From contig NC_084463.1 in assembly GCF_027409185.1 (NCBI RefSeq), positions 161,921,869-161,985,868 on the forward strand: 64,000 nucleotides of DNA, given 5' to 3'. Source of the stretch: Cynocephalus volans (taxonomy: Eukaryota > Chordata > Mammalia > Dermoptera > Cynocephalidae). A program made the translations under genes and the position numbers. Positions 41,901 to 44,900 of this stretch are shown here, piece after piece (the first letter of the stretch is position 1; each line of letters starts with the position of its first letter). The notes under the pieces were generated by a model. That model searched no databases, was not told the DNA's origin, and saw only the letters and a program-made list of their open reading frames with translations.

Positions 41901-44900
41901 CCAGCAGCCCTCACAGTCACACCCACGCACGACATCACACCAGCCCCTGCCAGTGGGTCCAGACCTTTCCCGATTCTGTCACTGTCTGTGTGGTTTCTGA
42001 TCCTTTGTAATCACTCCCTCTAAGTCCCATCACGTTGTCTCCCAACACAAACATCCGAGTCACAGAAAGTGTTCCCCTCCGAGTTCTTTGCCCCGGCGGC
42101 CCCCCGACCCCCGTCCCCCTGCCCACAGGGTGCCCCTCTGCCCGCGGAGCTCACCTTGGAGCTGTTTGAAGCGTCCTTCCAGCACGCTGGCATACTGAGC
42201 GGGGTTGATGAAGGCAGCCGGCGACAGCAGGAGGCCCCCCGGGTTCTGAGACCCTTCCACAGCCTCGTAGTAAAACTCGCCGGCCCCATTGAGGCCGTTA
42301 CCACGCACCCTGCTCACTCCGTCCCCATTCATGGTGCCGGCTGCCACCTACACAGCCCGCGGCCCGCAGTCCATGCTCCCCCTGCACGGGGACGGGCGGC
42401 AAGTTCTGTTCCCTGCTGGAGCCTGTGCTGGGCGTCCCCAGAGGCTGGGGTCCCGGGTCGGGGATTTAAGGATGGTGGGAATTAAGGAGTGGGGAAAAAA
42501 AGAGTTACGGGACGTCTGAGCTCCTGAGACGAGTGAGGGCACACCTGGCTGGGCGAGAGGAGACAGAGGCAGCTCCAGACAAACAGGTCGGACAGTGGCG
42601 GGGGAGGGGTGGAGGCGGAGCCCGCCGGGCAGCCAGGGCAGGGCCAGGCTCTGCGGGGGCGGGGGAGGGAACCGCCAGGCCTTACAGACCTGCCCATCAG
42701 GCCCCAAGTTGCCTAAGAACACAGAAGACCTGCCAGAGGGGTCCCCAAAGCAAACGCCTGCTCTCTTGCAGGTGCAGCAAGGGTGGCCCTCTCTGGGTGA
42801 CACTGGGAGACCCCTTCTAGGACACGGGCTTCGATCCCCAGCTCAGAGAGGAGAGAAAGAGAAACCTGGAAAGGAGGAGATCCTCCAAGAGGTAAAGCCA
42901 GGCACTGTGCTAGGCATTTACTTTTGTTCCCTCATCTGTGAAGTATTGTTATTGTCCCCTCCACTTGCCTGTCATCACCACCTCTGGTGCCAGCCCCTTC
43001 CCTACCCTGGGCCCACCAGGGCCCTCCTCAGCCAGGCCATCCCAGCCCCCAGACACACCCCACTGCTGGGCACATCGACCACATTCCTTTCCTACCTCTC
43101 TCTCGGCTTCAGCCTCTGCCTCTTGCAGCCTACACTTGCCCCTCCCCCACCTTGGTCCATTCAGTATTTCCTTGGTACCTACTGTAGGAGGCACAGTGCT
43201 AGGCAGAGTCCACACAGAGATGCCTCCTCAGGACAGCCCAGTTTAGTGGTAGAGATAAACACCTTCTGAGAGTATGGGGTGGCACATGTGTGTGCACAGA
43301 CAGGGCAACAGTCCTTGGTGGCACAGGTCCTGTGTGCACAGACATTATAACAATATTGGCTGGCATGTGGCATGTGCACAGACATAGTGACAGTTCTGGG
43401 TGGCATATGTCCTGTGTGCACAGACATGGTAAGAGTCCTAGGTGGTATGTGTCATATACACACAGACATGGTGACAGTCTTGGGTGGCATGTGTCCTGTG
43501 CACATAGACATCACAACAGTCCTGGGTGAAACATGTCCTGTATACACAGACATGGTGAGAGTCCTAGGTGGCATGTGTCATATGCACACAGACATACTGA
43601 CAGTCCTGGGTGGCAAGTGTCTGTGCACACAGACATCACAACAGTCCCGGGTGAAATGTGTCCTGTGGGCACACACACCTCATGACAGTTCTAGAGGCTA
43701 CCTGAATCCAAAACTTGGTACCAGGGAAACTTCCTCAAAAGAGGTGACTTTCTCCATAACTCACATCTTCTGTCTTCTCTGATCTGTAGAAGCACTGACA
43801 TGAGTATTTCACAAGCCAGCCTGAATATCCAACCAGAAGGACAGAGAGGCCCAGAAGAAAATGATAAGGGATCCCTACAACCTATGGCTACCATGTGGGG
43901 ATCCTCAGAATGGTGCTTCTCTGGCTGAAAACAATTACCTGGGGAGCTTTTTAAAAATCCTGAGTTCTGGACTAGAGGTCCAAGGATTCTAATTCACTGT
44001 GTCGAGGGAGGGAGTTGGGAACCTGTATTTGTAAAAACTATCCCTGGGTGATCCTGTAAAACATGCGGCCTGGGAACCTCCCCCTCAGACTCTCTCTCTT
44101 CTTCCAGGGGCCACCCCTACTCCCACGCCCACTGGGAGAACCACCTCTTGGGTGGGAGTAGTTGCAACCTCACACTGGATTGGGCTGGGTGGCAGGTCAG
44201 TGGCAATGACAACGGTGGTTTGGAGGAAGGAAGCCAGACTGGGTGGGTGGCCTTGGGGTATGTGGGTGACTCAGCCCCACGCCAGCCACTGGTGGTGTCA
44301 GGTGGCAGCCGCACTCTCGTTGCCATGACAACCTCTCCCCCGGAAAGCAGGGAGGCCTGTCAGACGGGTTTGCTGGAGCTCAGAGGAGCTGCAGGGGAGA
44401 GCCCTGGCTGTAGGGGAGGGCAGGGGCCGAGGCGGGCAGAGGACTAAGCCGGGCGGGCGAAAGGGCGGCTGCGGAAACCAGCGACAGGCGGAGGGGACCT
44501 GCTTCAGGGAACAGGTAGATGAAGTAATGGGAGGAACAGGCGGCAGGTGGAAGGAACAGGTGTGGAGGGTGTGGAGGGGCGAATGGACCAGGAGGCAGAA
44601 CAGGTGTGGGGAATGACAGTGCAAATCAAGGAAGACACCCCAAGGGAGGAAAGGTGAGGGAGAGGTGGGTGGCGACAGAAGTGACGGCAAGAGTGAGAGT
44701 GCAGAAGGATAAAAGGACATGACTCAGGGGCCGAAGCTGGGAAGGGGAGTTGTTTTAGGCAGCTGAGCGAGTCCAGCGGTCAGCACAGCTTCTCTGTGCT
44801 GGGGGGAAGCGGGGGAATGTTGTGGACAGCATGAAGTTTGTTCCTGAGCCTGGATTTGGGGACCAGGGGCTCAGTAGGGTGCTCTGGGTCTCCACTTCAG

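Follow-up and report, generated by a model that had tools for sequence, protein, structure and literature searches.

A large part of the SPTBN2 gene lies on the minus strand of the stretch of DNA analysed here, which is 64 kb long and is referred to as the window. Exons encoding spectrin repeats are found at about 19.5-31.1 kb, together with a frame at 32.4-32.9 kb (minus strand). The common exon, which carries the start of CH1 (DEREAVQKK) and is assigned to a CH domain by Pfam, was read over 39931..40073 (minus strand). The coding part of the canonical coding first exon, MSSTLSP...RIKALA, consists of 52 codons and one base at 45189..45345 (minus strand), and an acceptor-like CAG is situated upstream of it (last intron base 45368, minus strand). 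Of interest is a candidate alternative coding first exon, the coding part of which, 59 codons and one base, spans 42155..42332 (minus strand) and ends at the phase-1 donor AAG/gtgagc. The order on the minus strand is thus canonical exon (45345), alternative exon (42332) and common exon (40073), with the alternative exon between the other two; the short-isoform exon of SPTBN1 presumably has the same place in the exon order of its gene. A large CpG island of ~1.5 kb with 203 CpG is present at 50081..51640 and is presumed to represent the main SPTBN2 promoter.

The window contains several other features. Ten tRNA-like matches (eight with Val and two with Ile anticodons) are found, e.g. at 44960-45105, 57960-58105 and 60648-60723; they form tandem pairs at two sites and have the appearance of tRNA-derived SINEs, elements of a type present in bats. 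The metazoan SRP RNA model is matched at full length (model positions 1-299, 169 bits) at 57580-57869 on the plus strand, a putative 7SL gene or retrocopy. An RRM-coding frame (Pfam RRM_1) and a zinc-knuckle-like frame are present at 1915-2604 and 7769-8359 (minus strand); these we take to belong, probably, to an RBM4-type gene.

A candidate alternative exon and its putative SPTBN1 counterpart

Translation of 42332-42155 (minus strand) proceeds without a stop and yields 59 residues, with one base left over. The ATG has the context GGCACCATGA, with a purine at -3, and the frame is closed on its 5' side by an in-frame TAG six codons upstream (42348..42350, minus strand). Two ATGs are found further upstream. 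That at 42374 opens an ORF of eight codons (MDCGPRAV, 42348..42374, minus strand) in the presumed 5' leader, which is in frame with the alternative exon, stops 15 bases before its ATG and could reduce its translation; the other is at 42697. Within the exon, a second ATG at 42289 starts a 45-codon frame, but this is incompatible with the common exon because it reaches the donor in phase 0.

The alternative donor and the canonical donor (CAG/gtgagg) are both in phase 1, and when either exon is joined in silico to 40073, reading continues in frame into CH1, directly before DEREAVQKK. By an approximate position weight matrix, the alternative donor has the top score among the 312 GT sites of the 5.1-kb intron. 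The sequence-only reading had proposed a 59-codon exon with a good start context and a consensus donor, in the same splice phase as the MSSTLSP exon; its coordinates, frame and donor are all exact, and the agreement in phase holds as well. The frame, donor, phase, junction and codon usage (see below) are observed features and expression is predicted; it is with good confidence that 42155..42332 can be considered a real first coding exon of SPTBN2, alternative to the canonical one.

Is there a counterpart in another beta-spectrin gene? We take the short isoform of SPTBN1 (beta-II spectrin) to have an alternative N-terminus of 36 residues, which ends in LEGRFKQLQ before DEREAVQKK and is encoded by an exon with its own start site. 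Compared with this assumed sequence, 13 of the last 24 residues of the alternative SPTBN2 N-terminus are identical in an ungapped alignment (LSPA and LEGRFKQLQ), and none of 5000 shuffles attains the score. Almost all of the likeness is within the last nine residues. Without the last eight, the local alignment is not significant (2683 of 5000 shuffles reach its score), and the upstream part, when anchored, is marginal (764 of 20 000); homology to SPTBN1 beyond the last nine residues was thus considered and found to be marginal only. The two N-termini are alike in that both are joined at DEREAVQKK, end in LEGRFKQLQ, carry LSPA at an equal offset and replace a canonical tail ending in RIKALA. 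They differ in length (59 residues vs 36), in the first 35 residues here, which are unaligned, and in 11 of the last 24.

The sequence-only reading had identified EGRFKQLQ as the sequence of the SPTBN1 short isoform. This agrees with the assumed sequence, but as both start from the same SPTBN1 sequence, the match is not an independent proof. The same reading considered the rest of the peptide to be unlike SPTBN1, which needs qualification, as LSPA recurs with equal spacing to the junction, but is correct in so far as the upstream part alone gives a weak match. A text search of the literature for the residues of the short SPTBN1 N-terminus gave no match, and that N-terminus is absent from the best 5 of 47 PDB matches. 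Passages of PMC4180938 name an SPTBN1 accession and do not mention the SPTBN1 N-terminus. The short block shared with the assumed sequence suggests that the alternative SPTBN2 exon probably has a common ancestry with the SPTBN1 short-isoform exon.

Plectin offers another comparison. Its variable N-termini come, we assume, from many alternative first exons, and they precede a CH1 start of the same kind. Two solved PDB chains of plectin differ in the residues before CH1, with ..RIA-DERD in 3f7p and ..KK-DERD in 4q57, both of which are constructs; a literature search on plectin gave no match. The likeness is functional and does not place the SPTBN2 exon in the plectin family; plectin is a different gene, and SPTBN2 has two candidate coding exons here. 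This kind of arrangement is already known, from plectin N-termini and presumably from the SPTBN1 short isoform, and the SPTBN2 exon is a further case.

Has the SPTBN2 exon itself been described? A slightly longer SPTBN2 model is, we believe, annotated in human; for this reason novelty should not be assumed, and the alternative N-terminus is possibly already in the reference annotation. In the literature on SPTBN2 with 'alternative promoter' or 'first exon', the passages covered, from PMC3281071, PMC7912017 and PMC12136424, do not describe the exon. Wider searches, in which SPTBN2 was not required, gave no SPTBN2 among the matches listed, and SPTBN2 transcript and protein accessions had no match in the literature. 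A novel SPTBN2 isoform, of unspecified type, is raised by thrombin in endothelial cells, and the passages of the paper that report it give no N-terminal detail (PMC3281071).

Promoter, splicing or chance

How might transcripts carrying the alternative exon arise? The exon is surrounded by a CpG-rich patch (41911..42670; GC 0.64, CpG o/e 0.57, 45 CpG) that contains two CCGCCC boxes and, on either strand, no TATAWAW. It is a possible promoter of the alternative exon, as would suit the second promoter suggested by the sequence-only reading, but patches of similar grade are found elsewhere in the SPTBN2 gene body, and the patch is therefore weak promoter evidence. About 0.6 kb upstream of the patch is a minisatellite (43277-43677) with a 42-base unit in 9.7 copies; periods of 84 and 126 fit as well, and the array is possibly species-specific.

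An acceptor-like sequence, ACTTGCCGCCCGTCCCCGTGCAG, is present at 42382..42404 (minus strand) and would make the alternative exon an internal one. Twelve of the 16 bases before its CAG are pyrimidines, compared with 11 of 16 before the canonical exon and 10 of 16 at the acceptor of the common exon. Through this sequence, which ends at 42382, the alternative exon may be fed from the main promoter (50-51.6 kb) as a mutually exclusive second exon that has no promoter of its own. The canonical coding exon, with its acceptor-like CAG, fits such an arrangement too. The promoter-like character of the CpG-rich patch argues for a separate start, as does the SPTBN1 counterpart, which presumably has its own start site, and inclusion of the exon after the canonical one introduces a stop codon. 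Feeding from the main promoter is the less expected mode, though one to be taken seriously; the protein product would be unchanged, so that this reading overlaps with that of an alternative first exon.

The stop codon also bears on a cassette role. When the canonical, alternative and common exons are joined in silico, a stop is reached 17 codons past A52; the two coding exons must therefore be mutually exclusive for protein output, and a cassette is rejected as the main role of the alternative exon. The same stop would suit a little-used or regulatory (poison) exon that reduces SPTBN2 output, but this does not account for an ATG-started frame in the fitting phase, for codon usage that resembles coding sequence or for the match to EGRFKQLQ, and a poison exon is improbable.

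Could the frame be a product of chance? Phase-1 frames that start with ATG, have at least 45 codons and end at AGGTRAG number only two on both strands of the 64-kb window, these being the canonical and the alternative exon; looser donor patterns give more (six with AGGTRRG, 12 with MAGGTR). When the intron was simulated 2000 times with a third-order Markov model, 167 of the copies contained an ORF of at least 59 codons that ends in phase 1 at AGGTRAG, and 19 still did when the strict donor was combined with a purine at -3. The ORF and its donor are thus weak evidence alone; as they are not rare, the argument depends on the junction and the residues in common with the assumed SPTBN1 short N-terminus.

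For codon usage, a model was trained on ten frames that match Pfam families, 1343 codons in total; nine of the frames belong to SPTBN2 and one to the RRM gene, and their limits were set by the analyst and extend beyond the Pfam stretches. The alternative exon scores 0.27 bits per codon, a value matched by 2 of 550 overlapping segments of non-coding sequence that lack stops; none of the 550 reaches it under a local-composition null, which favours the exon because it is fitted to the exon's own region. The canonical first exon, which is outside the training set, scores higher (0.43). GC contents by codon position are 0.68/0.44/0.73 in the alternative exon vs 0.72/0.41/0.78 in the training exons. 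When the exon is read from its first base, both shifted sense frames have stops; one antisense frame is open, with a codon score slightly below zero.

For the 59 residues, Pfam gave no family with an E-value limit of 10, and the PDB gave three matches, all at chance level (best E 0.21). In one scan each, 30 pattern matches in viral contigs and 226 in prokaryote contigs included no relative, the expected outcome as the exon is mammalian. No repeat in its surroundings is attributable to the exon. Simulated introns do produce such ORFs, but that the frame is open by chance within a GC-rich intron is highly improbable in view of the coding-like codon usage of 42155..42332, a donor that is the best in the intron and a nine-residue match to the assumed SPTBN1 sequence that ends exactly at the junction.

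Proposed exchange of the actin-binding N-terminus

Passages of two papers describe the part of the protein that the alternative exon would replace (PMC8810934, PMC5676748). The N-terminus of human beta-III spectrin consists of residues 1-52, of which S37-A52 form a helix on F-actin that is continuous with helix A of CH1, beginning at D53. When residues 1-51 are removed, the actin-binding domain of beta-III spectrin no longer binds actin. In the fly, a beta-spectrin with an N-terminal truncation does not rescue loss of the gene, and N-terminal truncation relieves the toxicity of L253P (PMC8810934, PMC5676748).

The exon boundary is at A52/D53: 52 codons lie entirely within the canonical exon, and the codon for D53 is split by the junction. 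Because the boundary falls exactly there, the alternative exon would exchange the actin-binding N-terminus as one unit. The alternative end, RFKQLQ, is in register with the canonical end, RIKALA, with R.K.L common to both, and a continuation of helix A is thus plausible for the alternative N-terminus. The net charge of the last 16 residues is +1 in the alternative and +3 in the canonical sequence. Comparison with the canonical N-terminus of beta-III spectrin (residues 1-52, PDB 6ANU) shows likeness in the position before CH1 and in R.K.L at the junction, but no significant sequence similarity and a less acidic alternative sequence. Homology between the two exons was considered and is unsupported: the score is reached by 1173 of 5000 shuffles in the local alignment and by 1554 of 20 000 in the anchored one.

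The sequence-only reading had predicted that the isoform would lack an acidic N-terminal tail. The canonical N-terminus is indeed the more acidic (10 of 52 residues vs 5 of 59), but the whole of residues 1-52 would be replaced, including the S37-A52 helix. The replacement of this helix would be the main consequence of the exchange and is a sharper account of it than that of an acidic tail.

The alternative first exon suggests the following scheme. Transcripts that start at, or are spliced into, 42.4 kb would join 42155 to 40073, and their product would be a beta-III spectrin with a 59-residue N-terminus in place of residues 1-52. CH1 and the parts downstream would be the same in both isoforms. 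The alternative N-terminus may still extend helix A while touching actin differently, and from the sequence features at the junction, actin binding by the alternative isoform is probably altered, being either weaker or differently regulated.

Did the beta-spectrin genes retain a switch between two N-termini, one that sets the grip of CH1-CH2 on actin, from before the split of SPTBN1 and SPTBN2? This can be offered only as a tentative proposal. An exon that exchanges exactly residues 1-52 would be a natural way to tune actin binding, and the choice of N-terminus in Purkinje cells would be relevant to SCA5 and to the drugging of the beta-III spectrin N-terminus.
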